DNA of 64,000 bases from Pirellulales bacterium. GTDB lineage: Bacteria > Planctomycetota > Planctomycetia > Pirellulales > PALSA-1355. The notes below the pieces were generated by a model. The model was not told the origin of the DNA. It saw only the letters and a list, made by a program, of their open reading frames with translations, and did no database searches. The position numbers and the translations under genes were made by a program. Location of the stretch: assembly GCA_022844125.1 (NCBI GenBank), contig JALHMI010000001.1:248001-312000 (forward strand), read 5' to 3'. Below are positions 18,554-36,271 of this stretch, one piece after another. The first letter of the stretch is position 1. Every line of letters starts with the position of its first letter.

Positions 18554-21500
18554 TCACACGGTAATTCGGGTTTCCAGTTCGTCATCGAGATCTCCCAGAA
18601 TGCCATCCAGATCGGCATCCCAGGAATCAGATCCGTCGACGTCCACAAACTGCGGCATCTCTTCGTACATCACCCGGTCAACCGAACGCGAACTCAAGCT
18701 GCCACCAGCATCGGACGCCGCCACCGCGGGGACTGCAACGGGCTCGTCGGCCGGCGCCGACTTCTGCTGGTTTGCAGCCAGGCCAATCGAAACCGCGTTG
18801 GCATCGCCCATATCTGGCAAGGCAGCCAGCGGAGCGGCCTCGGGACTCGATTCGTCGGCCATCGCTGCCAGAGGCGCGGGACTAGGCGGACTCAAGATGT
18901 AATTGATCACCGCCAGCAAGTCCGAGGTGTTCAATCGCCCGTCGCCCGTAGGATCAAGGTACGGCGGCGGAGTAGCTACCAGGGGCAACTGGCCACCCTG
19001 ATTCAACAGAATCCGGTTGATAAGTAGCAGCAGATCCGAGCCGTTGACCCGACCATCGTCGTTGACGTCGACCGGGTTTTCCGGGTTCTGCCACGGGCTA
19101 GCGATTGTATCCGTCAGGTTGACGACAAACTTCGCGACGCCATCCGTCGTATTGTTTTGTAGAGCATTGCCCGCGATGTCCTTGATCGCATTCGCGCCCG
19201 TGTTGATCAAGGTGATTTCATAAATGCCGTTGATCCACAGCCCCTGGGCGGGAATGAGCCGTGCGATCCGGCTGTTCGTGTCGTACGACAGCAGGTAATC
19301 CAACCCCGCAACAAGTGGCGCGGTGACTCCGTTGACCGTGCGGGTCACGACGAAGCTGGCGGGCAGTACGGTGGTAGCATCGATGCCGACACCCCCATCC
19401 AGCAACTGGATCGAGAAGTCGGTGAGCAGTGCGTTGAGCAACGTGACCTGGTTCGCGGCCGTGTTGCGATCGTTGCCCGCGGCATCGTTGTCGACGGGAT
19501 TGATGAGCTGCGCCGTTGGCCCGAGGAAGTCGGCTCGCTCCAGAGCACCGCGATCCTTGAACGCATTGCCACCCACACCGGCGGGCGGCGCGACGGTAGG
19601 ATCGTCCACGCGCTGCTGACCGAGCAGATCGCCTGGCGGCGCCAGAATCGGTGAAGGCGCGAATCCCACCGGCGAGATAACGTTGAGCAGTTCTGCCCGA
19701 TCCAGCAGCGAGTCGATGCTGCTGTCGATGGCCTTGCTCTTAGCGTCGAGATAGAAGTTGCCGGCCTCTTCATTCACGAACAGCGGATCGTTGGCCCCCA
19801 GGGCGATCGCCAGCGTTTCGCTTCCTCCGGCCAGGTTCTTTCGATTGTTCTGGTAGACGTTGGCACTTACGACGGCCCCGCTCGCGGCCGAAGCGGCGTC
19901 GACGTAGATCGCGGCCCCTATCCCGCCGAAGGCGCTGATCTGTGGCACTTCCGTAATATTCGCAATCACGTTGTTAAGAATCGACGGACTCGACGTGTTA
20001 CTCGCCGCGATGCCAATTCGGGCTTGATAGACCGTGTTGTTGACCACCCGTACGAACGGCACGAACAGCTCGATGTCGCGCCTGAAAATCGGATTGCCAT
20101 CTCGATAGAAGAACCGGTCATCAGATTCTCGCGTGTTGTACGTAAAGTCGGCATTCGGATCGCCGCCGACTTGAATGCCTGTGCGTCCGCTGTCGATAAC
20201 CAGGTTATTCTTGAGCGTGACGCCGGGCACCCATCCGCGCGAGTTGACAGCGGGCAATAGTCCCGTTGCACCCGCGTTGCCTGCCACGCCGATCGGGAAC
20301 AGGCCCCACGCAGTTCCTGCGAAGCCCGTCTCGTCAATCTGGTTCAACTTCGGCACGACTTGAATGCCTACGCCGAACGAATGGCTGACCGTGGCGTTCT
20401 GCACGATGGTCTGGCCTGGCGGAATAGCACTGGCCTGCGGCCGGGTGTCACCGACACCGTCATACTTGATGATTCCCGGAGCACCAGGGAAGTCCGAAAC
20501 GACTTGCAAGGCGTCGAACAGGTCGACGCGGGCGCCGTTGTTGGCGGCTCGGGCGCGGACCTTGAAGCTGCGGCTTGTGACAGCGCCATTAATGGCATTG
20601 GCAATCGCCTGGGCAACTTGGGCCTCACTCGTCATGCCCCCGATCGAGATCAAAACACTGTTGGCAATGCTCTGGCTCGCATTCGTATCGAACTCAAAGG
20701 TCAGCTTCAGCAAGCCGTCGTCGATCTGGAAGCTAACGCCATCCAATCCAGTCGACGGAGTTGGCGCTACCAGAGTGAAACCTTGAGCAAGGCGATCGTT
20801 GACGTCAAAGGTCGCCGCGAGATCGAACCCATTTGAGCCAACCGCCGTGTAGCGATCCGCAGGACGGATCTGAAGTTGGTAAGCGCCGGTCACGATTTGC
20901 GACGGCAGGAAAGACGGCTTCGGAACAGGTACGAATCCTTGGGTCGCTTCGGCATTCGTTACCATTTCGCCGCGCGAAGCAAAGCCGACGATGAAGTCGT
21001 CCAGATAGACGCCTTCAAAGAACTCGCTCGAGCGATCTCGGCTGCGCGAGTTGAAGTTGCCGTTTTCGTCGCCCGTGTACTGGACGGTCGAGAACCTGAA
21101 CGGCCCTGCATCGGTCACTGTGTGGGTGCCGAAGAATCGCAGTTCTCCGCCGACGACTTTCGCCGTGGTGAACGCATTGGGGTCATCCAAGGCCGGATCC
21201 ATGAACGTCAGGTCGAGTGCGGCGGCAATCTTGCGAGCGACCTGTTCGGCCGTGTCGTTATCACTGATTTGGATATCATTCGGAGCGGATGGCGCGCTCT
21301 TGACCAGTCGATAGGTCGCGCTTGTCGGACCACCGGGGCTGTTTCCAGCGACGGTAAACTGCGAATTGTTTGGAATACGGCTGCCTGGAATGGTGCTAAG
21401 TACGCGGCCGAGTTGTCCGACGTCAGATCCCATCGATCCGGCGGTCGAGAACTGAAGGCGAAGCCGGATGTTCTTTTGGCCGGCGAAATCGCCCAAATCG

Positions 21501-24500
21501 ACGCGGGCTTGCCGCCACACGACTTCATCCGAGCCTTCGAGCGTAGTGCTGTCCCAGAGACTTTGCACTTTCTGCTTCGCAGCGAGGGAGCCCCCACCCG
21601 TGTACGCTCCGCCGCTGGGCGTGTTGAATGAGGGGCTCTCGCTACTGCCTGGGACAACGTTACTGGTTGCCAGCAAGCTCCAGCCGACGCCGTCCGTTGA
21701 TGCGTAAACGCGGAAGGCATCGGTGGCCGAACTCGACGAAGTGCGAGTCGAGTTGTTGTCCGGCGTATCGAGAAAGTAGTTGAAGTACAGTGTCGGCTTG
21801 TCGTAAGCGCTGTAGCCTTCGAGACTGAACCCGTCCGAAGTGATGCTGCCATAGGTGCCACCGGGAACCGCGTAGCTGTCCTGCAAGGCGGTGTTGCTGC
21901 CAATGGCCCCGCCGAGCGGCTGATTGCCGGTCACGCCAAAGTAGTAGCTGGTGCCACCATTGGTCGTCTGTGCGATGATTTCGCGGTTTATCGCACCGTG
22001 GTACGCGGACTCGATGCCGTGGCCGGCGTCGGCGGCTCGGTTCGATGTCGCGCCCCACAGGTTGTAGTCGAAAGGTGAAAGCGCGATGCCTTGAACGTTC
22101 TGCAAGCCGGTGTCGAGCGTTGCCGATCCGTTGACGAACACGCCCCGCATGTTGCCGTTGGTGTCGAAGGCGTACATCCGGCCCTCGGTATCCATCGCGA
22201 ACAGCATGTTGGCGTAAGCGCCCCCTTCGACGTTCTGTGGACCTGCGACCAGCGTCGTGATCGTTCGGCCGCCGACCGCGATTTGCTTCGGTGGAAAACC
22301 GGTGTCAATGTTGACCTCGTCCGTGGCGTCACTGACATTCCAATTGTTCGACAGCCGGAACAGACGACCATTGCCGGTGATGGTGTACATTTCGCCGCCG
22401 ACAATTGCCATGCCCACCATCTGGTCAACGGCGAGATTCGCGCCGCCGATCGTCAAAATGCCCAAAGGAACGAAGTTAGTCAACGCCCTGGGATTAGCGG
22501 AATCTGCATCCCATGGCCCGCCGTCCGAAAGGTGCAATACCTCGCCGGTATCCGGATCGAGTTCGACGAGGATATTCTGCATGAGACCCACGATACCTGG
22601 CGGGGTCGTTCGCTGAGCCATCGCGAACAACTTGCGTTGCCCGGAATTCTGCGACTGAAAGAACGTCATCGCCGTGTATCGCAGCGGCGAGTCCGTCTGT
22701 TGCGTAGGCCAGGGCTGCCCTTCCTCCTTTTCGCCGTTGATGACCGACAGTTGGGTACCATCGTCTAACAGTTCCGTCCCATCGACTAGTGAATCGATCA
22801 AGTTTCCCGTCGCGGTGTTGATGCGCGCATAGTTGCCGGACGTGTCATTCGAGTTCCCAAACTCCAAGGTCATGAGTTGACCGTCGTTGCGCATCGCAAT
22901 CTGACTCTCGCCCTGGACCGTCAAACCGACGCCACCAGTGGTCATCAGTTGCCCCGTGAACGGGTTCACGGTCACCAGGCTCTGGCTGCCGTTTCGAATC
23001 TGGTTGACGAACATTACCACGTCGCCCAAGTGGTAGTCGTCGACGTAGTTCGGTAGACCGCCTCCAAACAATTGCCCGGAAGGTCCCGCGGTGGTGATGC
23101 CGCTACCGCTGGAACCGACGCGATCGTCGATGATTCGCCTGGTCGAGTCCACTGGCTCCAATCGCACCAGCGGATTGAACGGCACCAGCGGATCGCTGCT
23201 ACCTTCCAAGAAGCTCGCCATGAGCTGATCTGGAAGTAACGCGTTCGAAGTGATCGAGACGTAGTAAACGACTTCGCTCGAAAGTTCGTCGCCAACTGGG
23301 CCTCCCCCCGGCAGTACCACGGAACCCAGGGTCGGATCAAGTACGCCGTAAGATCCGTGCCGGAGATTGGTCGTGTCGTTGCCAATTCCGCCTACGTTCG
23401 GGCGCGGCAGCGAATCTGCAATCTCACCGTCACGGGCAATCATGATCAAGGTGCCGGTCGAGTCGTACAGCGACAAAGTGGTGTCGGGGCGGCCCAGACC
23501 ATCCGCAAAGTTGACCTGCAGCATCGCGGCGAAATAAGTCTGGATATCGCCAAACGCCTGCACTTGTTCGAAGTTCACGTTGAACTTGTACCAATCCGCA
23601 CCGGTGGTCAGGTTGCCCGCGACTTCGATCGTGCTGTTGTCCGACTCAAGCAGGTTCCCGAGATCTTGGGCATTCGCAAACTCGTGATTGCCATCGACGA
23701 ACAGGCCATTTTCGTCGATCGTCTGGATCGTCGTTTGCTTCGTGTTCGATACCAGAGCCGACTGTTGCGGTTTGCCGATGATCTCGATGCCGTTGTTCGC
23801 ATAACGAATGTCCGCGTAGCGGATCGCGGAACCGGCGAACTGATCGATCTCCTGCAACCGCACTTGCAACACGTAGCTGCCTTTGGTGATTCCGCCCGTC
23901 AGATTATTCAAGTCGGCGCTGTTCGATCGCACCCGAACGTAGTACGTATTCACGCTGCCGGCGGCCCCGGTCAACCGAACCCGCATGCCGGCGTCCTTCT
24001 CGTTAGTCGAGTAGAAGTCGGGGCTCGCGAAAGCACTGCTCAACTCGGCGCCTGATTTCAACCGTTTCGCCGATCCGACAAGCAGCGACGGATTGCTGTC
24101 CTCCGCCAGCGAGTCGTTGCTGCGGGCAACGACGGCGCCGTTGGCATCGACCAGTTCCACCACGGAGTCAAGCGCGGTGGCGGTGCGATCGATGTCGAAC
24201 CAGACCATGGTCCCGGCGGTGGCTCGGAAACTGTAGACGTCGACGTCGGCTCCGCCGGGACTGTTCGTGGCCTGGCTCAAATTGCCATAGATCTCGAAAC
24301 CGAGCCGGACGTTGTCGTTGGCGCTGAGCAGATCCTTGGCCAGTTCGCCGATGGATTGCGCAGTGTTGGGCGATCGGTTCGCATCACCGCTCGAGGTAAA
24401 GCCTTGCTCAGTTTCGTTGACGATCTCGACGTTCGTATCGTTGCTATACATGTCAAGCCGGACGCTGCCCCAGTCGCCGGCACGAACGACGTCTTGCGCT

Positions 24501-27500
24501 GGGCCGATTACCGGGCCACCAGCGACGCGTCCCAAAATCGCGACTTCGCCGGTCACCGAATCGACCGCCCACGGCACGAAGCGGTTGAACCCACTGGGAC
24601 CTTCGAAGGTAGTGCGGTACGGAGTACCGATGTTCAGGTCACCTTCACTGATTTGCGCGGCGGTAAAGCCGTCGATACTGGCGGCGGTGGCGGACATGAC
24701 GTTACCGCCCCCCGCGCGAAGCGCGAAATCGGCCAGGAAGTCGTATTGGATCGCCGAGCTATCCTGCGCCATGACCAACAGACCGCCGCCCTTGTTGTCC
24801 ACGTAGTTGATTAGACTCGCTTTGACATCGTTTAGGCTGGCGAGGTGGAAGTCAGACACGCCGCCCCACCACTTGGTGCCCTGTTGTTCCTGGGCACGCC
24901 CGACAGGAAGCGAATAGCCCGGTCCATCATCGTCGATCGCGAACGGAGAATTACCGTGCGAGGGAATGAAGATAGCCGCATATTGGCCGTTGGCTGCAGC
25001 ACTAATGCCGCCAGCGATTTCCGGGCCATTGTCGGCAAAGGTAACCTGCAGGCCAAGCTGCCCCGCGGCCCAGCGAATCGCCTCAGCGCTATAGGGAACA
25101 CCCAAATCAGACCCATCTGGAGCCGTCTCCCAGCCGATCACCAGAATGCTGTTCGGCTTGTTGACGACTCGGGAGTTCTCAAATACGTACCTGAGCTCGT
25201 CTCGAAGTGTGTCCCAGCCGTCGAGGCCTGCCGATGATCGGCCGTGAACATCGCGGGCCGTGGTATCCAACATGATCGGTCCCGTGGTCGCGCTATTTGC
25301 TGGAACCGGGGCGATCACGCCCTTGGTGTTGCGGGTGTCTTTCTGCGGCTGTCCCTGCGGAGTCAGCCCAGCGCCGACGGTATCGTCCTTAAGCGAAGTG
25401 ATGACAACTGGGCGTCCCGCGGTGCCCACGATCTGCAAGCTGCCGCCCAGGCGATCGCGGATGTCGAGAGCCTCGCCGCCCGCCACGAGATCGACATTGG
25501 TGCCCAACATTTTGACGACCAGGCTCTCGGTCGGGCTGCTCTGCAGACGCAGGGTACCGCTGAGCGACTGCTGATTGCCGGTCGTAACCGAGTCGCGCAC
25601 AACGTGTACGATGTCGGTATCATCCCAGATCGAATTGGTGGTGATCAGTCCGCCGCGCACGACCATGCCGTTGATCGAGTTGTCGCCGACCAGATTGTTG
25701 CGAATGAGCGGACCGGTGTTCTTGGGGAAGGAGCCGGCCAGACCGATTGCGCCGCGACTGCGTCCCCAATCGTCAACCAGCGTTGCGTTGAGCGAATTGA
25801 CATTGACGCTGACGGCGGCTCCGCCCAGATTGCCTTCGAAGATGTTGTTCAAAATGACCGGTTGGGCACCGCGAATATAGATCACCGCGGCGTCCGAACT
25901 GCCGCGACCGTTTCGGTCACCACCGCCGGCCAGTCGGTTCGCCTGGAACGTCGAGTTCGCGACGCGGACCTGGGCCTGGTGGATCTCGATCGGATCCATG
26001 GAGCTCAAGAAACCCTCGAATCGCACGTCGCCGCCGGCGAAGGCGACCAACGTATAATCTAAACTGGCCATCGAGGTAGGGCCAAACAAGAAACCGCCCC
26101 AATCACCCGCGGTCGGTCCCACCACGTCAGGTTGCGAAGGATTACCATTGTTGCTCGTATCCGAGCTGCCGCTGCGTCCATAGCGGTCATCGTACAGCGA
26201 AGTGAAAATGATCGGCCGATTGAGCGTACCCTCGGCGATCAAGGTGCCACCGACTTCCGTTTCGAAACGACCGCCCGCAAGCTTGAAAACCGTGCCCGGA
26301 TCGATCATCAGGCTGCCGCTGGGGCGTGACTGCGGACTGCCGACAGAGCCCGTCATTCCGCCGGGATTGCCGTTGATCACCAAGGTTTCGGTGAGAATGT
26401 GCACGATGTCGGTGTTGGCAATTCGGCCAGTGACCGTCAACTCGTCCAGCACGCGACCGGTTTGGGAACTGGTCTCGATCGCGATGAACAGGCCGTTGAG
26501 TGAGTTCTGGGTGAGCCTGTTGCCATAAATCTTGGGACCGACGCGGGTGTAGTCCGCGTAGTAAGCAGCCCCCTGGAACTGGCTCTCTTCGAAGCTGTTG
26601 GGGGTGGCCGACATGGCGGCATCAGCGCTATCGATTACCGTGTTGAAGGTGAGCGTCGGCCTGGCGGTCTCCATGTGGATGGGCCGATAGACGTCGGTCT
26701 CGCCGTTGACGGTTACAGCACCACCGCCGTAGCTGATGCGAGCCATGTTGACATAGTTGAGGAACACGCCGTTGGCTTCGAGATCTGAGTCGTTGCGGAA
26801 GACGATACCGCCCCAGTTGCCCTTGGTCACGCCAGGGAGATTAGGCACCGGAGCGCCAATCGTATTGTCGTAGTAAGAGGTGAAGTACACCTGATTCGTG
26901 GGCGTGCCAAGCACCTGCAGTGCGCCTTGCGAGCGGTCGATGCTCGTGGGATCGACCGACCCGGCGTTGACGTTCGCCCCCCGCAGCTTCAGGATTGCGC
27001 CGGCATCAACCATGACCGTGACGCCGCGCGGAATTTCAAAACGCGTGCCGTCGGAAAGAGCTCCGCCAATGGCGTCGAAGCCGATGTTGTATGCAGCGTT
27101 GTCGCCGACCGTGGCCAGGTTTCCGTCAGCGCCGCCATTGCCCACGACGCGCACGATCGTCCCCACGGGTGCTGCCGCCAGGGCATCACTGATCCGGGTG
27201 TAAGGATTCGTGATCTCGCCGAGCGGGCCTGTTCCGCCGGTTGACGCCTTGTCGACGTACCGGGTTGGGGCCACCTTGAACCAAAAGTTATTCACGCCGC
27301 CTGCGACGCCATCGTTATCGCCGTCCAGGCGATTATCCGACAGGTCGCGAATGCCGTCCGCAGCGGCCGTCGTGGTTGTGAAGCTCATCCGGAGTTGGAA
27401 GTCTCCAACCGTGGTTCCGCCGGCGCCGCTCTTGGCGACTCGCGGATCGAAATCCGTGTTTCCCGTGCTGGTCACAGCGACGTAGTAGGTACCTTCGCTC

Positions 27501-29245
27501 AGATCGAGCTGCAGGAACGAATCCTTGCCGAAGTAGTCGTCGTTGCGGGCGATGATGTTTCCGGCCACGTCGTAGAGGGTGATCACGCTATCGAGTGTGC
27601 TGTCTGCCGCTGCCACACCAACGGCGCGCATCCGCTCGGCAATCGTTTCGATATTCAGCCGCCCGGCCGTGGCGAGCGAGAATTTGTAGACGTTGATGTC
27701 GTTGCCCAGCGTCGGCCAGAGGTACCTGCCGTACAGAATGTCGAAGTCGCCGGGAAGGACGCCGTCGCTGATGCCGCTACCCTGGATGGCCGGGGCTTCG
27801 TAGTTGTGTCCCAGGCCGAGCAAGTGGCCGATCTCGTGCATTGTCGTGCGGAAGAAAGCACCGCGAGTTTCGCTGGCGCCCCAATTGACGATCGAGTTCA
27901 TGATCGCGAGGTTGCCGCCGGCAACACCGCCAACTTCGAGATTGTCGACTAACACGCGCGGATCGCCGACGGCGATCGTAAAGCCTTGGCTGGCGGTTTC
28001 AACGAACTGCACGCCAAGGTAGTAACCGTAGTACTCGAAGACTTCGCGGACTCGGTCCTTCTGAGCTTCGGTGATCAGGTTGAACTGCGGAATGCCGTTC
28101 AGCGTGCCGAACTGCGACTGGAAGTTATAGGCCTTGACCTGGACCGCATTGGTGTTGGGACCTCCGTTGACGTGCGCGCTATTCGCGCCATCCGGCGCGT
28201 AGTTCTCGCGCTCGCCCGGCTCCAGGGGCGACCCTGGCCAGACGGCGCTGGTGGCGACGCTGCCGATCGTGCTGGTGATGGCCACGGTCTTGGTGCCGAG
28301 ACCACTCGTGAAGGGATTGTTCAATTGGGCCGCGGAGGCGAACGCATCGCCTGCCGTCCCCGGTGAGAGATTCGTGAAACTGTTGGCCAGGGCTTCGCCC
28401 GTGCCGATGCGGAGGCGATAGGTGCCAGTGGCGGTGAGCGCGTCGGTGGCGAAGGTCAATGTCGCCTTGCCCGTGGTAGAGTCGTACGTCACCGACTGCG
28501 GATTGAAGCGAACGTCGTCCAGCGTGCTGGCCGTGGGATTGGCCGTATTTACATCGCTCGTGCGGATGAGCTGGTAGTTGGCCGGATTCTGAGCCGACGC
28601 CTGATGGAGCGGATCGTTGACGTTGAAATACACCTCGATCTTGTTCTGATTCTCAAGCGAGAGCTTGCCCTGCGCATCGCGCGTGATCGGCTGCGGGACG
28701 ATGGCCACCACCTGCGGCGCCAGGTCGAGCTCGAAATTGCGCGTCAGGTTGGTGCCGCCCTGAAACGCTTTGCCAGCGGTATCCTCCAAACGATTGGCGC
28801 CGCTGCCAACAATGATCATCTGATAGTTCGCATCCGGCAGGTTCTCGTTGAACCGCACGACAACTTCATTCGGGAAGTTGGGGTTATCGACGCCGATATA
28901 GCCGGGCGTAATGGCGACGTCGTTGCCATTGCCCCAGGTCGTGTCTGAACTGCGGAGGAACTGGATCGAGGCGTTGCTGACCGTTGTTGCGTCGATGGGG
29001 GCGCTGAAGCGCAGCAGGATTTCGCGCGGGGCCTGCGACAGAATCGTAGCGTCGTTGATGACGATGCCCGTTGCCGGAATGGCCGCGAGGAGCTGCGGAC
29101 CGTCGATCGCCATTAGCAGGCGCTCTTCGAACGGCTCCAGGCCCAGGCTGCGCTTCGCTTTACGCGGGGCTCGGGTCGAAAGAACCTTGCGTGACTTCCA
29201 CTGCTCGAGTGCGCGCCGACCCGAAATACTCTGCCAGATCGCCAT
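18554..29245 (-). CDS. 3563-aa secreted multidomain protein with zincin motif and dockerin
   Basis: One uninterrupted frame of 10.7 kb. The N-terminus has a basic segment plus a LEPR-XLL-like motif (LGLEPFEERLLMAID). A Big/SwmB-like domain is followed by a metalloprotease-like segment with HEIGHLLGLGH at residues 470-480, the HExxHxxGxxH zinc site of metzincins. Further on are pre-peptidase C-type (DVUA0089-like) domains (INVYKFSLATAGRLNIET; YVAVTSTGN), right-handed beta-helix sections (GNLGGAAVSVNVNS; VVNNTVYQARIGIAASNTSS), and a long propeller-like central part. A dockerin pair lies near residues 3390-3450 (DVNDDGRVNGSDLLLLINRI; DPTGDGRLNTSDLLAVINYI), and the tail is acidic. It is probably surface-exposed. 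Whether the protease is active is unknown. Confidence 0.88.
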   Translation of the reverse strand: MAIWQSISGRRALEQWKSRKVLSTRAPRKAKRSLGLEPFEERLLMAIDGPQLLAAIPATGIVINDATILSQAPREILLRFSAPIDATTVSNASIQFLRSSDTTWGNGNDVAITPGYIGVDNPNFPNEVVVRFNENLPDANYQMIIVGSGANRLEDTAGKAFQGGTNLTRNFELDLAPQVVAIVPQPITRDAQGKLSLENQNKIEVYFNVNDPLHQASAQNPANYQLIRTSDVNTANPTASTLDDVRFNPQSVTYDSTTGKATLTFATDALTATGTYRLRIGTGEALANSFTNLSPGTAGDAFASAAQLNNPFTSGLGTKTVAITSTIGSVATSAVWPGSPLEPGERENYAPDGANSAHVNGGPNTNAVQVKAYNFQSQFGTLNGIPQFNLITEAQKDRVREVFEYYGYYLGVQFVETASQGFTIAVGDPRVLVDNLEVGGVAGGNLAIMNSIVNWGASETRGAFFRTTMHEIGHLLGLGHNYEAPAIQGSGISDGVLPGDFDILYGRYLWPTLGNDINVYKFSLATAGRLNIETIAERMRAVGVAAADSTLDSVITLYDVAGNIIARNDDYFGKDSFLQLDLSEGTYYVAVTSTGNTDFDPRVAKSGAGGTTVGDFQLRMSFTTTTAAADGIRDLSDNRLDGDNDGVAGGVNNFWFKVAPTRYVDKASTGGTGPLGEITNPYTRISDALAAAPVGTIVRVVGNGGADGNLATVGDNAAYNIGFDAIGGALSDGTRFEIPRGVTVMVDAGAILKLRGANVNAGSVDPTSIDRSQGALQVLGTPTNQVYFTSYYDNTIGAPVPNLPGVTKGNWGGIVFRNDSDLEANGVFLNYVNMARISYGGGAVTVNGETDVYRPIHMETARPTLTFNTVIDSADAAMSATPNSFEESQFQGAAYYADYTRVGPKIYGNRLTQNSLNGLFIAIETSSQTGRVLDELTVTGRIANTDIVHILTETLVINGNPGGMTGSVGSPQSRPSGSLMIDPGTVFKLAGGRFETEVGGTLIAEGTLNRPIIFTSLYDDRYGRSGSSDTSNNGNPSQPDVVGPTAGDWGGFLFGPTSMASLDYTLVAFAGGDVRFEGFLSSMDPIEIHQAQVRVANSTFQANRLAGGGDRNGRGSSDAAVIYIRGAQPVILNNIFEGNLGGAAVSVNVNSLNATLVDDWGRSRGAIGLAGSFPKNTGPLIRNNLVGDNSINGMVVRGGLITTNSIWDDTDIVHVVRDSVTTGNQQSLSGTLRLQSSPTESLVVKMLGTNVDLVAGGEALDIRDRLGGSLQIVGTAGRPVVITSLKDDTVGAGLTPQGQPQKDTRNTKGVIAPVPANSATTGPIMLDTTARDVHGRSSAGLDGWDTLRDELRYVFENSRVVNKPNSILVIGWETAPDGSDLGVPYSAEAIRWAAGQLGLQVTFADNGPEIAGGISAAANGQYAAIFIPSHGNSPFAIDDDGPGYSLPVGRAQEQQGTKWWGGVSDFHLASLNDVKASLINYVDNKGGGLLVMAQDSSAIQYDFLADFALRAGGGNVMSATAASIDGFTAAQISEGDLNIGTPYRTTFEGPSGFNRFVPWAVDSVTGEVAILGRVAGGPVIGPAQDVVRAGDWGSVRLDMYSNDTNVEIVNETEQGFTSSGDANRSPNTAQSIGELAKDLLSANDNVRLGFEIYGNLSQATNSPGGADVDVYSFRATAGTMVWFDIDRTATALDSVVELVDANGAVVARSNDSLAEDSNPSLLVGSAKRLKSGAELSSAFASPDFYSTNEKDAGMRVRLTGAAGSVNTYYVRVRSNSADLNNLTGGITKGSYVLQVRLQEIDQFAGSAIRYADIRYANNGIEIIGKPQQSALVSNTKQTTIQTIDENGLFVDGNHEFANAQDLGNLLESDNSTIEVAGNLTTGADWYKFNVNFEQVQAFGDIQTYFAAMLQVNFADGLGRPDTTLSLYDSTGTLIMIARDGEIADSLPRPNVGGIGNDTTNLRHGSYGVLDPTLGSVVLPGGGPVGDELSSEVVYYVSITSNALLPDQLMASFLEGSSDPLVPFNPLVRLEPVDSTRRIIDDRVGSSGSGITTAGPSGQLFGGGLPNYVDDYHLGDVVMFVNQIRNGSQSLVTVNPFTGQLMTTGGVGLTVQGESQIAMRNDGQLMTLEFGNSNDTSGNYARINTATGNLIDSLVDGTELLDDGTQLSVINGEKEEGQPWPTQQTDSPLRYTAMTFFQSQNSGQRKLFAMAQRTTPPGIVGLMQNILVELDPDTGEVLHLSDGGPWDADSANPRALTNFVPLGILTIGGANLAVDQMVGMAIVGGEMYTITGNGRLFRLSNNWNVSDATDEVNIDTGFPPKQIAVGGRTITTLVAGPQNVEGGAYANMLFAMDTEGRMYAFDTNGNMRGVFVNGSATLDTGLQNVQGIALSPFDYNLWGATSNRAADAGHGIESAYHGAINREIIAQTTNGGTSYYFGVTGNQPLGGAIGSNTALQDSYAVPGGTYGSITSDGFSLEGYSAYDKPTLYFNYFLDTPDNNSTRTSSSSATDAFRVYASTDGVGWSLLATSNVVPGSSESPSFNTPSGGAYTGGGSLAAKQKVQSLWDSTTLEGSDEVVWRQARVDLGDFAGQKNIRLRLQFSTAGSMGSDVGQLGRVLSTIPGSRIPNNSQFTVAGNSPGGPTSATYRLVKSAPSAPNDIQISDNDTAEQVARKIAAALDLTFMDPALDDPNAFTTAKVVGGELRFFGTHTVTDAGPFRFSTVQYTGDENGNFNSRSRDRSSEFFEGVYLDDFIVGFASRGEMVTNAEATQGFVPVPKPSFLPSQIVTGAYQLQIRPADRYTAVGSNGFDLAATFDVNDRLAQGFTLVAPTPSTGLDGVSFQIDDGLLKLTFEFDTNASQSIANSVLISIGGMTSEAQVAQAIANAINGAVTSRSFKVRARAANNGARVDLFDALQVVSDFPGAPGIIKYDGVGDTRPQASAIPPGQTIVQNATVSHSFGVGIQVVPKLNQIDETGFAGTAWGLFPIGVAGNAGATGLLPAVNSRGWVPGVTLKNNLVIDSGRTGIQVGGDPNADFTYNTRESDDRFFYRDGNPIFRRDIELFVPFVRVVNNTVYQARIGIAASNTSSPSILNNVIANITEVPQISAFGGIGAAIYVDAASAASGAVVSANVYQNNRKNLAGGSETLAIALGANDPLFVNEEAGNFYLDAKSKAIDSSIDSLLDRAELLNVISPVGFAPSPILAPPGDLLGQQRVDDPTVAPPAGVGGNAFKDRGALERADFLGPTAQLINPVDNDAAGNDRNTAANQVTLLNALLTDFSIQLLDGGVGIDATTVLPASFVVTRTVNGVTAPLVAGLDYLLSYDTNSRIARLIPAQGLWINGIYEITLINTGANAIKDIAGNALQNNTTDGVAKFVVNLTDTIASPWQNPENPVDVNDDGRVNGSDLLLLINRILLNQGGQLPLVATPPPYLDPTGDGRLNTSDLLAVINYILSPPSPAPLAAMADESSPEAAPLAALPDMGDANAVSIGLAANQQKSAPADEPVAVPAVAASDAGGSLSSRSVDRVMYEEMPQFVDVDGSDSWDADLDGILGDLDDELETRITV

Positions 29246-29900: not shown

Positions 29901-30818
29901 TTAAGCCAGAGCGGCGAAAAAGCCGCCTGCCATCCAGCCGGCAAACCAGGTGCCCAGCTTCTCTTCGAGCTCGTTTACGGGCGCAACGGCCGATGCCGCG
30001 GCAATTGCGGTCGGTAATGTCTCACCCTGAGCCAATGCCATGAGCAGCAGGTACTGCGGTTCGTCCAATTCGAACCTTTCGACCACAAAGTCTCGCCGAC
30101 AGATGGCCAGCCAGTGATGCTCAGCCACGGGAGTAACCGGCGTGAGTTCATCCTTCCGATCGCCCCAGTAGCCGCTCACGTCATGTCCGAACGCCAGCAG
30201 TCGCAGGCAGGGCGCCGGCGCCAGGCGAATCTTCTGCCAACCCTCCGGATCGAGCCCAGCCAGCCTGGCCGGATCGAGTGAGCCCGTCTGCTCCGTCCCG
30301 GGACCGTCATAGACTTCGTACAGGGCCCGTTCGAGCGAGGCCAGCTCGATGACGAATTCCGGCCACTTGTCGCCAGAACCTTCCGGAGTTTCTCGGGCGT
30401 GCAGCCGCGACTCCGCGAGAAATGCCGGAAAACGTCGGCCCAGTTCGCAGAGCGTGTAACTCGCGGAAGGGTAGTTTTGCAGGTAGCCGAACGAGAGCGC
30501 CCCGAACAGCTCCTCGCCGACGGCATACCGCGTGACCGCAAACTCCTCGTCCAGGCACTCCATCAGCCGGGCATGATAGGCGTTCACATAAATCTCGAGT
30601 CGATTCGCGCTTGAAAGTGCTCGCGAGGGCAGGATCACCTCGGGAAGTCGGTCCAGCGTGATCTCAATCTCACGCCGGGCGGCCGGAGATTCGACTCCCT
30701 CGCTCACTCCGCCGGGGTGCATCAGGATACTTTGCATCCAGCGCTGTACCTGTGCCAGCCGCGGCTCGGGCGGCTTGCTCGGATCGATGGATTCAAGGGC
30801 ATCTGGGTCGTTAGTCAC
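29901..30818 (-). CDS. DUF2063 partner protein of a bufferin/HvfC-type RiPP system
   Basis: I start this at the GTG at 30818, which has GGAG six bases upstream and lies 13 bases after the stop of the DUF692 gene; a TTG at 30851 would overlap that gene. The 305-aa product has the DUF2063 (BufC/HvfC, sometimes labelled putative DNA-binding) N-terminal domain: RLAQVQRWMQSILMHPGG, then SSANRLEIYVNAYHARLMEC, FAVTRYAVGEELFGALSFGY and SYTLCELGRRFPAFLAE. A second, winged-helix-like C-terminal part follows. In characterised systems this protein binds the peptide precursor and works with the DUF692 enzyme. The family's presence directly after DUF692 is the standard arrangement. Confidence 0.88.
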   Translation of the reverse strand: MTNDPDALESIDPSKPPEPRLAQVQRWMQSILMHPGGVSEGVESPAARREIEITLDRLPEVILPSRALSSANRLEIYVNAYHARLMECLDEEFAVTRYAVGEELFGALSFGYLQNYPSASYTLCELGRRFPAFLAESRLHARETPEGSGDKWPEFVIELASLERALYEVYDGPGTEQTGSLDPARLAGLDPEGWQKIRLAPAPCLRLLAFGHDVSGYWGDRKDELTPVTPVAEHHWLAICRRDFVVERFELDEPQYLLLMALAQGETLPTAIAAASAVAPVNELEEKLGTWFAGWMAGGFFAALA

Positions 30819-30831
30819 TCTGCGCTCCGCA

Positions 30832-31767
30832 CTAACGAATCTCGGGCACAATGTAAGAGATCGGATTCGAAACGCCCGCGGCTACCGGTTCGTCATCCGC
30901 GGCCGGGGCGGGCCTGACCAGCGGCACTTCGTTGACCGCGCCACCCATATACTGGCGGGCCTTGAGCACCTCGGCATGCACCACGGGAAACTCCGGGATT
31001 TTGGCGTCCCATTCCAGCAGAGTCGACGCGCCGCCGGTCCGCTGGTGGGCCAGCCGATAAAGCTCCCAGACCGGGTCGATCACGTGGTTGTCATGCGTGT
31101 CGATAATGTGTGTGCGGCAGTCGGTGTGACCGGCCAGGTGAAATTGCACCACCCGGTGATGCGGCACGCGCTCGACATACTCGCGAGGATCAAAATCATG
31201 GTTCACGCTCGAAACGTACACGTTATTCACGTCGAGCAGCAGCCCGCAATTCGTGGCCGCGGCCAACTGACTAAGAAACTCCCATTCGGTGAGCGTGGAA
31301 CCCGCAAACGTTACGTACGAACTAGGGTTTTCCAGAACCAGCGGTCGTTCCAGAAAATCCTGCACGACGTTAACCCGCGTAATCACATGTTCCAGCGAGT
31401 CCTCGTGGAGCGGCAGCGGCAGCAGGTCATGCGCGTTCAAACCAAGCACGCCCGTCCAGCACAAATGATCCGAAATCCAGCGGGGGTTGATTTCGTCAGC
31501 GAGCCGCCGGAGCTTCTTCAGGTACTCGAAATTCAAGGGGTCCGTGCTGCCGATCGAGAGCGACACACCGTGCATGACGACGGGATAGCGTTCGGCGATC
31601 GCTTCCAGGACATAGCGAGCGCGGCCGCGAGAATCCATGAAGTTCTCGGAAATCACCTCGAACCAGTCGACTTCCGGCTCGTGCGCCAGGATGTAGGGAA
31701 AATGGACCGAGCGTAGTCCGACCCCCAAACCCAGATTCTCCATGCCCAATCGGGCGCCTGTGGCCAT
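30832..31767 (-). CDS. DUF692 multinuclear iron oxidase (MNIO), BufB/HvfB type
   Basis: The ATG at 31767 has GGAG six bases upstream; the frame could extend to 31809 without support. The 311-aa product is a TIM-barrel DUF692 protein. Candidate metal-ligand positions along the barrel are all present: WFEVISENFMD, PVVMHGVSLSIGS, RWISDHLCW, LVLENPSSYVTF, GLLLDVNNVYVSS, VVQFHLAGHTD, IIDTHDNHV and STLLEWD. Family members are iron-dependent oxidases that modify Cys residues of ribosomally made peptides, for example to oxazolone/thioamide (MbnB, HvfB) or thiooxazole (bufferins) groups. The gene lies between a Cys-rich secreted peptide gene and the DUF2063 gene, so the substrate is almost certainly the upstream peptide. 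Confidence 0.92.
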   Translation of the reverse strand: MATGARLGMENLGLGVGLRSVHFPYILAHEPEVDWFEVISENFMDSRGRARYVLEAIAERYPVVMHGVSLSIGSTDPLNFEYLKKLRRLADEINPRWISDHLCWTGVLGLNAHDLLPLPLHEDSLEHVITRVNVVQDFLERPLVLENPSSYVTFAGSTLTEWEFLSQLAAATNCGLLLDVNNVYVSSVNHDFDPREYVERVPHHRVVQFHLAGHTDCRTHIIDTHDNHVIDPVWELYRLAHQRTGGASTLLEWDAKIPEFPVVHAEVLKARQYMGGAVNEVPLVRPAPAADDEPVAAGVSNPISYIVPEIR

Positions 31768-31792
31768 CGTAAACTCCGTGTCCAGCCTCGAC

Positions 31793-31841
31793 AAAAAGAA
31801 ACACGGCACGAGCAGAACGTGGATGTTCCACTCGTGCCGTG
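31793..31841 (-). terminator. Terminator-like hairpin between RiPP precursor and enzyme genes
   Basis: On the minus strand CACGGCACGAG (31841-31831) pairs perfectly with CTCGTGCCGTG (31812-31802), with an internal GTGGA/TCCAC stem, followed immediately by TTTCTTTTT (31801-31793). It lies in the 104-base gap between the precursor stop and the DUF692 start. A leaky intrinsic terminator here would allow more precursor transcript than enzyme transcript, as is usual in RiPP operons. Confidence 0.75.
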
Positions 31842-31871
31842 AATTGTACCGTGAAGCTGAAGCGGAGTCGC

Positions 31872-32321
31872 TTAGGACTTCTTGGCGGGAGCGGGGCCAA
31901 CTTCTTTGCCTTCGGCCTTCATAAGTTCTTCAAAACGCTTGCGAGCCTTCTTCCAGGCGCCACTTGAAAGCGGCACCGCGCACTCGCCCTTGCCTTTACA
32001 CTCATTCTCGCCGGGCTTCGCGCCGCAGCCGCCCTGGCCGCGACACTCGTTCTTGTAGTGGCACAGGTGTGCCTTGGCGGTGGCGCAGGCACCCTGTCCG
32101 GCACAGGCATTATCTTTCGTGCTACCCAACCCCTTGCACATGTTGATGCCGCGGCAGATGTGCGGCTCGCCCAGGATGGGGTTTTTCTTCTTGTCTTTCT
32201 GGGGTGGTTTCGCATCTTCAGCCTGCGCTGATGAGCCGAGCGAAGCCCCCGCCAGCAGTCCGCCCACGGCGGCCGCCGTCAGACGCTGAAAGTCACGCCG
32301 ATTGAGTCCCGAGTTTTCCAT
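31872..32321 (-). CDS. Tat-exported Cys-rich peptide, bufferin-like RiPP precursor
   Basis: The ATG at 32321 is preceded by AGGA at 8 bases. The 149-aa product starts with a twin-arginine signal (LNRRDFQRLTAAAVGGLLAG, likely cleavage after SSAQA). The mature peptide is short, basic and Cys-rich, with nine Cys arranged as five CX5C units: CRGINMC, CAGQGAC, CHYKNEC and CRGQGGC (sharing one Cys), and CKGKGEC. The repeated C-x-G-x-G/N pattern resembles bufferin (BufA2-type) core peptides, which chelate copper or other metals after Cys modification. It is the first gene of an operon with the DUF692 and DUF2063 genes. Lys-rich spacers and a Lys/Ala-rich C-terminus complete it. Tat export implies that the modified or metal-loaded form folds in the cytoplasm. 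Confidence 0.8.
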   Translation of the reverse strand: MENSGLNRRDFQRLTAAAVGGLLAGASLGSSAQAEDAKPPQKDKKKNPILGEPHICRGINMCKGLGSTKDNACAGQGACATAKAHLCHYKNECRGQGGCGAKPGENECKGKGECAVPLSSGAWKKARKRFEELMKAEGKEVGPAPAKKS

Positions 32322-32675: not shown

Positions 32676-33992
32676 CTAGACGAGATGGTCCAATCGACCG
32701 GTGGCATCGCCCAGTTCATTCACCGAAGACTCCATTCGGTCGAGCATCGAGAGAAAGAGATTATTGAGCGGCGTTTCTTTTTCCAGCTTCACGTGCCGGC
32801 CACTCTTGATGGTATCGCCACCGCGTCCGGCGACCAGAATCGGCAAATCGTCGTGATTGTGGCGGTTGCCGTCACCGATGCCGCTGCCGTAAAGCACCAT
32901 CGAATTGTCGAGCAGAGTCCGCTCTCCTTCCTGAATGCCGTTGAGCTTTTCCAGGAAGTACGCCAGTTGCTTGACGTGGAACAGATTGATCTCGCGAATC
33001 TTCATCTGCTTCGCTTCGTCGCCGCCGTGGTGCGACAGATCGTGATGCCCGTCCGGTACGTCGATGAATGAATAGGAACGGTTACTGCCCTCGTTGGCCA
33101 CGACGAACGTTCCCACGCGAGTCAGGTCGGCCTGCAGTGCCAGCGCCATAACGTCGTACATCAAGCGAATGTGCTGCTGGTAGTCGTCGGGGATACCATC
33201 CGGCTTCGGGTAGTCTGGTAGCGGCTGCGCTGGCAATTTCGTGGCGGCCGCGATCTGTTTTTCCAGTTCGCGGACCGATGTGAGATACTCCTCCAGCTTG
33301 CGTTGATCGCCCAGGCCCAGCTTCTGCTTCAAGTCTTTGGCATCACCCAACACCGCGTCGAGCACGCTCGCACGGTACTTTTCGGTTGGCTTCCCCTGCG
33401 AGAACAACCGCTCAAACGCCAGTTTCGGGTCGATCTCTTTGGCCTGCGGCGTGGTTTCCGTGCGCCACGAGATGTTCGTCGAGTACGAGCAACTGTAGCC
33501 AGAATCGCAATTGCCGGCTTGCGCGCCGCGATCGCACCCGAGTTCGAGCGAGGGGAACTTAGTGCGTTGTCCCACGCGACGGGCGGCCACCTGGTCGACG
33601 GAGACGCCCGTCCGAATGTCGGCGCCATGTGTCTTGCGGGGTTGCGTGCCGGTGAGAAACGCCGCCAGTGCGCGGGCGTGGTCGCCCGGTCCGTCGCCGT
33701 TGGCGCGGGCATGGTGCTGTGCGAGACCCGTGAGCACGAGCAGCCGATCCTTGACCGCCGCGAGTGGCTGCATGATATAGGGCAGTTCCCAATTATCGCC
33801 TTCGGCCGCGGGCGTCCAGTCCGGCATGTGCTTGCCGTTGGGCACGTAGACAAACACCATCCGCGTTGGCACACCCTTCTTCTCGCCGGCCAGCGCCAAG
33901 GCAGGCTTCATCGCATCCAATAGCGGTAGCGCCACGGCTGTCCCCAAACCTTTGAGGACTGTGCGCCGCGAAATGTGCGAACTCTTCGTCAT
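32676..33992 (-). CDS. DUF1552 protein
   Basis: This 438-aa protein has a twin-arginine-like start (HISRRTVLKGLGTAVALPLL), followed by family landmarks MVFVYVPNGKHMPDWTP, LVLTGLAQHHARANGDGPG, FLTGTQPRKTHGADIRTGVS and GHHDLSHHGGDEAKQMKI. DUF1552 proteins are planctomycete/verrucomicrobial exported proteins with an alkaline-phosphatase/sulfatase-like (DUF1501-related) appearance. They are nearly always encoded next to a DUF1592-type cytochrome protein. The ATG overlaps the upstream stop by four bases (ATGA), so the two are translationally coupled. A role in periplasmic carbon degradation has been suggested from co-occurrence, but none has been shown. Confidence 0.93.
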   Translation of the reverse strand: MTKSSHISRRTVLKGLGTAVALPLLDAMKPALALAGEKKGVPTRMVFVYVPNGKHMPDWTPAAEGDNWELPYIMQPLAAVKDRLLVLTGLAQHHARANGDGPGDHARALAAFLTGTQPRKTHGADIRTGVSVDQVAARRVGQRTKFPSLELGCDRGAQAGNCDSGYSCSYSTNISWRTETTPQAKEIDPKLAFERLFSQGKPTEKYRASVLDAVLGDAKDLKQKLGLGDQRKLEEYLTSVRELEKQIAAATKLPAQPLPDYPKPDGIPDDYQQHIRLMYDVMALALQADLTRVGTFVVANEGSNRSYSFIDVPDGHHDLSHHGGDEAKQMKIREINLFHVKQLAYFLEKLNGIQEGERTLLDNSMVLYGSGIGDGNRHNHDDLPILVAGRGGDTIKSGRHVKLEKETPLNNLFLSMLDRMESSVNELGDATGRLDHLV

Positions 33993-36271
33993 GGTTCACC
34001 CCTTATCGCGCGCCGCTTCTGAAACGCATCGCTCTCGACAATTGCGAGTACCAAGCTCGAAAACTTGTAGTCCTGCTCTTTCGCTGCCCGGGCGATGTCG
34101 TCCACCGTGCAACGATCACTATACTCGATCCCCCGGCCGAGGGCATAAGTCAGCAGTTTCTCGGCCAGGCAGTTCACAAAATCACCTTGCCGAGCCAGCA
34201 GAATCTGCTTGAGCTCACCAGGACCGTCAAACTTCTCGCCTCCAGGAAGTTCGCCCGAGGCGTCGATTTCGTGCGGACCATCCATGTGACGCCAGCCGCC
34301 GATGCCGTCGAAGTTCTCCAGACCAAAGCCAAGCGGATCCATGCGATTATGACAAACCGCGCAGTTTGGATTCACGCGGTGCTGCTCCATCCTTTCGCGC
34401 AACGTGCCCGAAACGGCCGCATCCGCCTCTTCCAGCTCCGGCACATCGGGCGGCGGAGGCGGAGGTGGCGTGCCGAACAAGTTCTCCAGCACCCATTTGC
34501 CGCGTTTCACGGGCGACGTGCGCGTCGGGTTCGACGTGACCGTGAGAACGCTGGCCTGCGTGAGCACGCCGCCGCGCTGAGCCGGGTCGAGCGAGACCTT
34601 ACGAAACTCCTTGCCCTTTACGTCGAGCATGCCATAGTGCACGGCCAACCGTTCGTCGACGAACGTGTAGTCTGCCTTCAGGAAGTCGAGCACGCTGCGG
34701 TCTTCGCGCATGATCTCGGCAAAGAACAGTTCCGTCTCGCGCTGCATCGAGCGTCTGAGCTGCTCGTCAAAGTTGGGATACTTCTCGCGATCGGGCGCGG
34801 CGACTTTCAGATTCCTGAGCTGCAGCCACTGACCAGCAAAGTTCTCGACCAGAGCGTCGGCTTTCTCATCGGCCAACATCCGTCGCACTTGCTTTTCGAG
34901 GTTGCCGTCGGTGCGCAGCGTGCCGGCTTTCGCCAACTCGAACAACTCGTCGTCCGGCATGCTGCTCCAGAGGAAATAACTTAGCCGTGTGGCCACCTCG
35001 AAGTCGTTCAGCGTGCGAATCTCAGACTCGCCGGGCCGAGGATCCAACTCAACCCGAAATAAGAAATGCGGTGAGCAGAGAATTGCTTGCAGCCCGAGGC
35101 TGACCGCGGAACCGAAGTTCTCGCCATCACGGTCGGCAAGTTCCACCAATTTCATCACGCGGTCCAGTTCCGCGTCTTCGACCGGTCGGCGGTAGGCCCG
35201 CCACATCAGATCGTGCAGGATCTCGCGCGCCGCAGCAAGTCGCGTGTCTGGCGTATATACTTTCGCCAGGATTCGTTGCACGGTATCAGGGTAAGGACCA
35301 GTGACTTCGAGGTCACGCAGATAGAGATTGCGATCCTGTGGTGGGTCAACCTCGTCGTCGTAGAAGTCATTTAGAAACTGGATCGAGACGGTGCGGCGGC
35401 CGCCTTTACCATCGAACCAAGCCTCGTAGGTCTCGGACTTCTCGCTCGTCGCTTTAACCTCGAACTCACGGATAAGATCCTTGTCCAGGTACACAGCCAT
35501 GCGCACCGGATCAGCGCCCACCTGATCGCCCCAGGCCCGTACACGCAGCAGATACTGTGCCTTGCCATGCATCCTCAACTGGGTGCGGACTTCGACGGAT
35601 TCATTTGTGATGATCCGCACGCCTTCGTTCAGAAGTTCGCCGCCGTTGACCTCGTTCGTGATCAGGTTCACCTGCTGGCCGCCGAGCACTCGGGACGTGA
35701 TGTTCTCGGCCGCGGCCAAATATTTTTCGAGCAGGATCGGCGGCATCGAGAGCACGTCGCCGATATTGTCGAACCCGTAGCCAACGTCGTCCGAGGGAAA
35801 ATCGTCCGCCGGCCGGAAGTCGACGCCCAGCAAATCGCGAATCGTGTTGTTGTACTCGTTGCGGTTCAATCGGCGGATGGTTACGCGGCCCGGATCGCGC
35901 GGCCCGTCGCCGCAGCCGGTCTTGGTCAGCTCCGCATCGATCCACCCGGTGAGCTTCGCCCTGTCGCCATCCACCAGCGGCTCTTCACCCTCGGGCGGCA
36001 TTTCTCCAGAATGTAGTTTCTGAGCGATTTTGTCCCACTGTTCGCGATCGCTGGCGACGTCCAGGGTCTTGAACAGGGCGTCGAATGCCATGCCACCAGT
36101 CGGTTCTTCGCCCGTATGGCAGGCCGTACAGTGTGCTTTGAAGAGCGGGGCGAGTGAATCGGCGAATTGCTTCTTTGCCTCGGCTGCGACCTCATCTCCG
36201 CATGCCAAGCCTGGCCAGCCAAGAACGGCAGCTAGAGTCAGGCTCGCGAGTACGGTTGGGCGTCGAGGCAT
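33989..36271 (-). CDS. DUF1592-family cytochrome c protein (DUF1587/1595/1592/1588/1585)
   Basis: The 760-aa product has a signal peptide and, near residue 48, a CXXCH haem site (CTACHTG) in a planctomycete-type cytochrome domain. Then, in order: DUF1587 (RLNRNEYNNTIRDLLGVDFR), a carbohydrate-binding-like beta section, DUF1595 (MWRAYRRPVEDAELDRVM), DUF1592 (FEVATRLSYFLWSSMPDDEL), DUF1588 (RGGVLTQASVLTVTSNPTRT, then VLENLFGTPPPPPPP) and DUF1585 (LAEKLLTYALGRGIEYSD). A second Cys pair lies in NCAVCHNRMDPLG, another CXXCH. This architecture is characteristic of Planctomycetota. It is the first gene of a two-gene operon with the DUF1552 gene and is likely periplasmic. Its function is unknown. Confidence 0.93.
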   Translation of the reverse strand: MPRRPTVLASLTLAAVLGWPGLACGDEVAAEAKKQFADSLAPLFKAHCTACHTGEEPTGGMAFDALFKTLDVASDREQWDKIAQKLHSGEMPPEGEEPLVDGDRAKLTGWIDAELTKTGCGDGPRDPGRVTIRRLNRNEYNNTIRDLLGVDFRPADDFPSDDVGYGFDNIGDVLSMPPILLEKYLAAAENITSRVLGGQQVNLITNEVNGGELLNEGVRIITNESVEVRTQLRMHGKAQYLLRVRAWGDQVGADPVRMAVYLDKDLIREFEVKATSEKSETYEAWFDGKGGRRTVSIQFLNDFYDDEVDPPQDRNLYLRDLEVTGPYPDTVQRILAKVYTPDTRLAAAREILHDLMWRAYRRPVEDAELDRVMKLVELADRDGENFGSAVSLGLQAILCSPHFLFRVELDPRPGESEIRTLNDFEVATRLSYFLWSSMPDDELFELAKAGTLRTDGNLEKQVRRMLADEKADALVENFAGQWLQLRNLKVAAPDREKYPNFDEQLRRSMQRETELFFAEIMREDRSVLDFLKADYTFVDERLAVHYGMLDVKGKEFRKVSLDPAQRGGVLTQASVLTVTSNPTRTSPVKRGKWVLENLFGTPPPPPPPDVPELEEADAAVSGTLRERMEQHRVNPNCAVCHNRMDPLGFGLENFDGIGGWRHMDGPHEIDASGELPGGEKFDGPGELKQILLARQGDFVNCLAEKLLTYALGRGIEYSDRCTVDDIARAAKEQDYKFSSLVLAIVESDAFQKRRAIRGEP

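Follow-up and report, generated by a model that had tools for sequence, protein, structure and literature searches.

The window analysed here, a 64,000-nucleotide stretch of a Pirellulales genome, carries three genes on its minus strand that follow one another in the transcription order precursor (31872-32321), MNIO (DUF692) maturase and DUF2063 partner. This is the order given by the initial annotation, and the planctomycete origin which it had proposed for the operon is likewise supported. The features discussed below are the following:

31872-32321, minus strand: bufA-like precursor of 149 aa, with a Tat-type signal (NRRDFQRL, h-region, AQA cleavage site), nine Cys in five CX5C units and a C-terminal amphipathic helix (W123...R127..FE)
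32220-32321, minus strand: Tat-type signal peptide region, residues 1-34, with R8, R9 and F11 conserved and TatC in the genome
31802-31841, minus strand: 17-bp hairpin between bufA and bufB, then a U-rich tract (31801-31792)
30832-31767, minus strand: bufB, MNIO (DUF692) maturase (PF05114, 360 bits; NF050167 BufB, 359 bits, cut-off 310)
29901-30818, minus strand: bufC, DUF2063 partner (PME-type 1) with an RRE-like C-terminal domain (PF09836, 59 bits, cut-off 27.2)

The flanks of the operon contain no copper genes, no DoxX and no sigma or anti-sigma genes alongside. The upstream region (32676-36271) encodes a DUF1552 protein that carries a Tat-like signal (SRRTVLKGL), next to a DUF1587/1592/1588/1585 protein containing a cytochrome-type domain and a CBM60, the two being a typical planctomycete pair. 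Positions 18554-29245 encode a protein of 3563 aa that has a dockerin type I domain close to its C-terminus.

The bufB open reading frame extends over 30832-31809, with the ATG at 31767 (GGAG 6 nt upstream) as the likely start and the ATG at 31743 as an alternative. Its product aligns with the Histophilus MNIO 3BWW over HGVSLSIG, SDHL, EN, DVNN, HLAGH and DTH, regions which we take to include metal ligands. The start of bufC is either the GTG at 30818, with GGAG upstream, or the TTG at 30851. An AlphaFold model of BufC (pLDDT 89.7) gave TglI (8hi7, 8hci) and NGO1945 (3dee) as the sole significant PDB matches in Foldseek, and according to this model BufC is a PME-type 1 partner.

The initial annotation had matched the operon to bufferin and HvfABC clusters alike; the first half of that match stands, for bufferin 2 and the BufA2-like Cys-Lys group, while the second does not. 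The oxazolin and fontiphorin systems (HvfABC, FonABC; EGKCG group) share with the operon an MNIO with a PME-type 1 partner and a Cys-rich secreted precursor, but the HvfABC type was rejected because the HvfB and HvfC models score under their cut-offs (250.8 versus 360 and 40 versus 142, respectively) and the precursor lacks EGKCG repeats. Bufferin 1 (DUF2282) has the same enzyme pair and gene order; the window precursor, however, has no DUF2282 match and another Cys pattern, and sigma/anti-sigma genes are absent alongside. The likeness to bufferin 2 (BufA2/BufB/BufC, Buf_6/12Cys) comprises the bufABC order, a BufB above the cut-off, a DUF2063-RRE partner, Cx5Cx5C Cys-Lys motifs and a signal peptide on the precursor, whereas the differences are a Tat instead of a Sec signal, nine Cys, the C-terminal amphipathic helix, a precursor below the BufA2 cut-off and the absence of DoxX. 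Linkage to DoxX was also rare among relatives, being seen only in 2 of the best 80 and in 6 survey loci (one DoxX seed sequence). Judged by sequence, the operon is a bufferin-2-type cluster (BufA2/captophorin Cys-Lys, MNIO-PME1), and its enzyme and partner place it firmly among the bufferin-type clusters.

The precursor begins with MENSGLNRRDFQRLTAAAVGGLLAGASLGSSAQA, followed by the predicted cleavage site and EDA..., and all of its nine Cys lie after the signal. These nine are enough for the five CX5C units counted in the initial annotation, since one Cys serves two units (CHYKNECRGQGGC). Shuffling the mature part 200,000 times gave five CX5C pairs in 3 cases, and restricting the shuffles to the Cys-bearing span gave them in 154 of 200,000; the array is conserved, with exactly five pairs in 74 of the best 80 of 407 relatives. 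The BufA2 model (NF050166) matches the precursor with 23 bits and E 7e-5, and since this match is significant yet under the curated cut-off of 60, the precursor is a divergent BufA2 variant; all 13 precursors of the first alignment matched BufA2, the best with E 1.1e-16. Its nearest product class is the Cys-Lys captophorins, i.e., bufferin 2 (PMC13097082). Nine Cys, not the six or twelve of bufferin 2, are also found in 87 of 112 Tat precursors, and comparison with relatives having 11 and 12 Cys (L065, L086, L079) suggests that this array derives from a 12-Cys array (four Cx5Cx5C units) by the loss of three Cys. The subgroup of the precursor shares the C-terminal helix, in which W123, R127 and E131 are conserved. 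AlphaFold predicted helices at residues 8-32 and 120-136 and a low-confidence Cys core; the model of the whole precursor (mean pLDDT 55.7) was uninformative as to its fold.

The layout is not a one-off; it is common in Planctomycetota. The precursor was detected in 41 and BufB in 57 (52 above the cut-off) of 294 Planctomycetota genomes, and 407 stretches in the genome collection encode relatives of the precursor, the best 80 of which belong to Planctomycetota (69), Verrucomicrobiota (8), Acidobacteriota (1, a MAG) and unranked records (2). An MNIO gene lies directly downstream of the precursor in 53 of these best 80, and DUF2063 is present as well in 46. Of 20 precursor loci whose available flank lacks an MNIO, 19 lie in genomes that encode one elsewhere, and therefore modification in trans is possible. 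Several relatives are distant from any MNIO, as would be expected if the precursor were an unmodified metallothionein-like Cys-rich protein and the neighbouring MNIO acted on something else, but the frequent adjacency, the presence of MNIO in 19 of the 20 genomes checked and the significant similarity to BufA2 make such a protein very improbable.

Several other arrangements were observed among the relatives. In L137, which among named relatives is the closest to the window precursor (78%), the MNIO frame appears disrupted and DUF2063 was not detected; this speaks against the bufferin-2 reading, although L137 is a MAG contig. As in the window, a protein of DUF1552 type carrying a Tat-like RR signal is encoded upstream. 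L098 and L092 have a tandem pair of Tat-type precursor genes before a single MNIO gene, some of them with only 4-5 core Cys. In the planctomycete loci L105, L108 and L109, the precursors next to BufB have Sec-type signals and four spaced CAGxNxCKGLGGCKV repeats with AEKLxKLAKxAGV segments between them. Two genes directly preceding an MNIO gene, L221:109-2433 on plasmid pNC201 of Pseudoalteromonas sp. NC201 and L102:2466-4484 of planctomycete G045, encode large fusion proteins that lack an evident signal peptide, in which an N-terminal PF12902 ferritin-like domain is joined to a bufferin-like Cys tail at the C-terminus (e.g., CKGSNDCKAQGGCG...NKCNNLGGCAVP); a literature search for MNIO with ferritin-like proteins found no paper.

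The N-terminus of the precursor shows the features of a Tat substrate, i.e., a twin-arginine consensus ahead of a moderately hydrophobic h-region, conserved in homologues, and the genome that carries the operon also encodes TatC. The initial annotation had proposed a Tat signal in place of a plain Sec one, and this is supported at the level of sequence. R8 and R9 are invariant among 46 homologues, and F11 occurs in at least 90% of them. Outside the window, RRxF was called in 79 of the best 80 relatives, and the remaining one (L155) has RRDF ahead of an in-frame linker stop. The patterns used for the scan were taken from the Cys core, outside the signal, but the ranking was by the whole precursor, so the best-80 set leans towards signal-like relatives; a less biased, MNIO-driven survey showed RRx[FLM] in about 26 of 38 planctomycete loci with a recognised precursor (L096 doubtful). 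Among 112 Tat-type sequences, 73 have RRDF, 93 have K or R at the Tat lysine position (+5) and 67 (~60%) have a lipobox too. The curated Tat signal HMM (TIGR01409) gave weak matches in only 2 of 13 precursors, with the best E of 0.0041.

Some RR signals are able to use Sec. The RR motif of the same operon could be incidental and the precursor could leave via Sec like other bufferins, a reading favoured by other planctomycete bufferins whose RR-less Sec signals have a similar Gly/Ala-rich h-region, and by the published idea of leader recognition, which is about Sec signals (PMC12452194). We consider this fairly unlikely, as RRxF is retained in diverged homologues with unalignable linkers, the +5 position is K or R in most Tat-type sequences, and h-region hydrophobicity is lower in the Tat-type set (1.49) than in the Sec sets (1.72 and 1.84). 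The Sec comparison covered five plasmid-borne Pseudomonadota operons, RR-less planctomycete precursors and the literature; none of the five Pseudomonadota bufferin-2 precursors has RR.

In a tree of 125 MNIO sequences, a quick one with some long branches, the Tat label changes 5 times versus 24.8 times with shuffled labels, and one branch with 98% support contains 75 rows and zero Sec-labelled rows. The fact that the RR state follows the MNIO clade would also suit the retention of the RRxF stretch mainly as a leader recognised by BufBC, not for the translocase, and preliminary data indeed place the signal peptide within the BufBC recognition sequence (PMC12452194). Against this reading, which seems quite unlikely to us, the conserved letters match the general Tat consensus, including the K/R at +5, and many of the sequences have a correctly placed lipobox. 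The predicted Tat signal is the real novelty here: its distribution follows a clade in the MNIO tree, and related planctomycetes have it too. The lipobox of many Tat relatives recalls the RiPP-lipoproteins with MNIO (DybA, NedA), but the window precursor lacks a lipobox and has an AxA site instead, and those described have lipoprotein signals, with Tat unmentioned. A search for MNIO or DUF692 together with Tat in an incomplete literature collection returned nothing relevant.

The 104-nt gap between bufA and bufB (31768-31871) has a folding z of -8.5; the hairpin stem is followed by the U-rich tract UUUCUUUUUG, and in a larger fold the likely ribosome-binding site of bufB is paired as well. Stems with a score of at least 10 are present in this gap in 54 of 86 operons versus 11.5 expected, and those with a score of at least 12 in 36 versus 2.6. 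All five Pseudomonadota controls have such a hairpin, therefore it looks like a general bufAB feature, and the view of it as planctomycete-specific was dropped. The hairpin probably keeps the output of the precursor above that of the maturase.

We infer that the three-gene operon probably makes a Cys-rich peptide, modified to trap copper. The characterised MNIO-PME1 products contain thiooxazole and have a role linked to copper (PMC13097082, PMC12452194), whereas the mmr genes of Microbulbifer represent an MNIO-PME1 locus with no copper response, as no induction was observed (PMC12538549). The flanks without copper genes, and the links of known bufferin-type clusters to gold and MerC as well (PMC12452194), would fit a product directed at redox stress or at a metal other than copper (zinc, gold, mercury). 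This deserves to be taken seriously but is not the probable outcome, given that the characterised MNIO-PME1 products bind copper (PMC13097082, PMC12452194). The whole reading, i.e., a bufferin-2-type operon whose Cys-modified, copper-binding product is exported by Tat, has in our estimation a probability of about two in three.

According to this reading, the precursor would be made in the cytoplasm and bound by BufC, probably via the signal/leader region, and BufB would oxidise the nine Cys, or only some of them, so that they form copper-binding groups, 5-thiooxazoles being the likeliest. The modified product would then leave by the Tat pathway, not Sec, and we propose that modification can therefore finish before translocation. 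Release into the periplasm would in this genome be the work of signal peptidase I, while in many relatives the product would become a Tat lipoprotein, anchored via the lipobox; once exported, the product would chelate excess copper.

According to the main survey of these systems, there must be some mechanism that keeps the precursor from being exported prematurely, before modification; the survey describes Sec and lipoprotein signals only, and the terms 'Tat' and 'twin-arginine' are absent from its main text (PMC12452194). For MNIO lipoproteins, one paper argues that modification is so rapid that it can compete with export (PMC12636315). The use of Tat would resolve the question of premature export in a natural way. 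We tentatively suggest, while regarding it as rather doubtful, that in Planctomycetota and their relatives Tat serves as a timing and quality check, so that only the cytoplasmically modified, perhaps folded or metal-loaded, precursor is exported.

If such a checkpoint is true, it would explain how signal-bearing MNIO precursors avoid premature export. A clade with Tat signals makes the timing of export versus modification directly testable. Few RiPPs are as widespread as bufferins, and the operon described here would extend copper-trapping RiPPs to planctomycetes, probably in both soluble and lipid-anchored forms.
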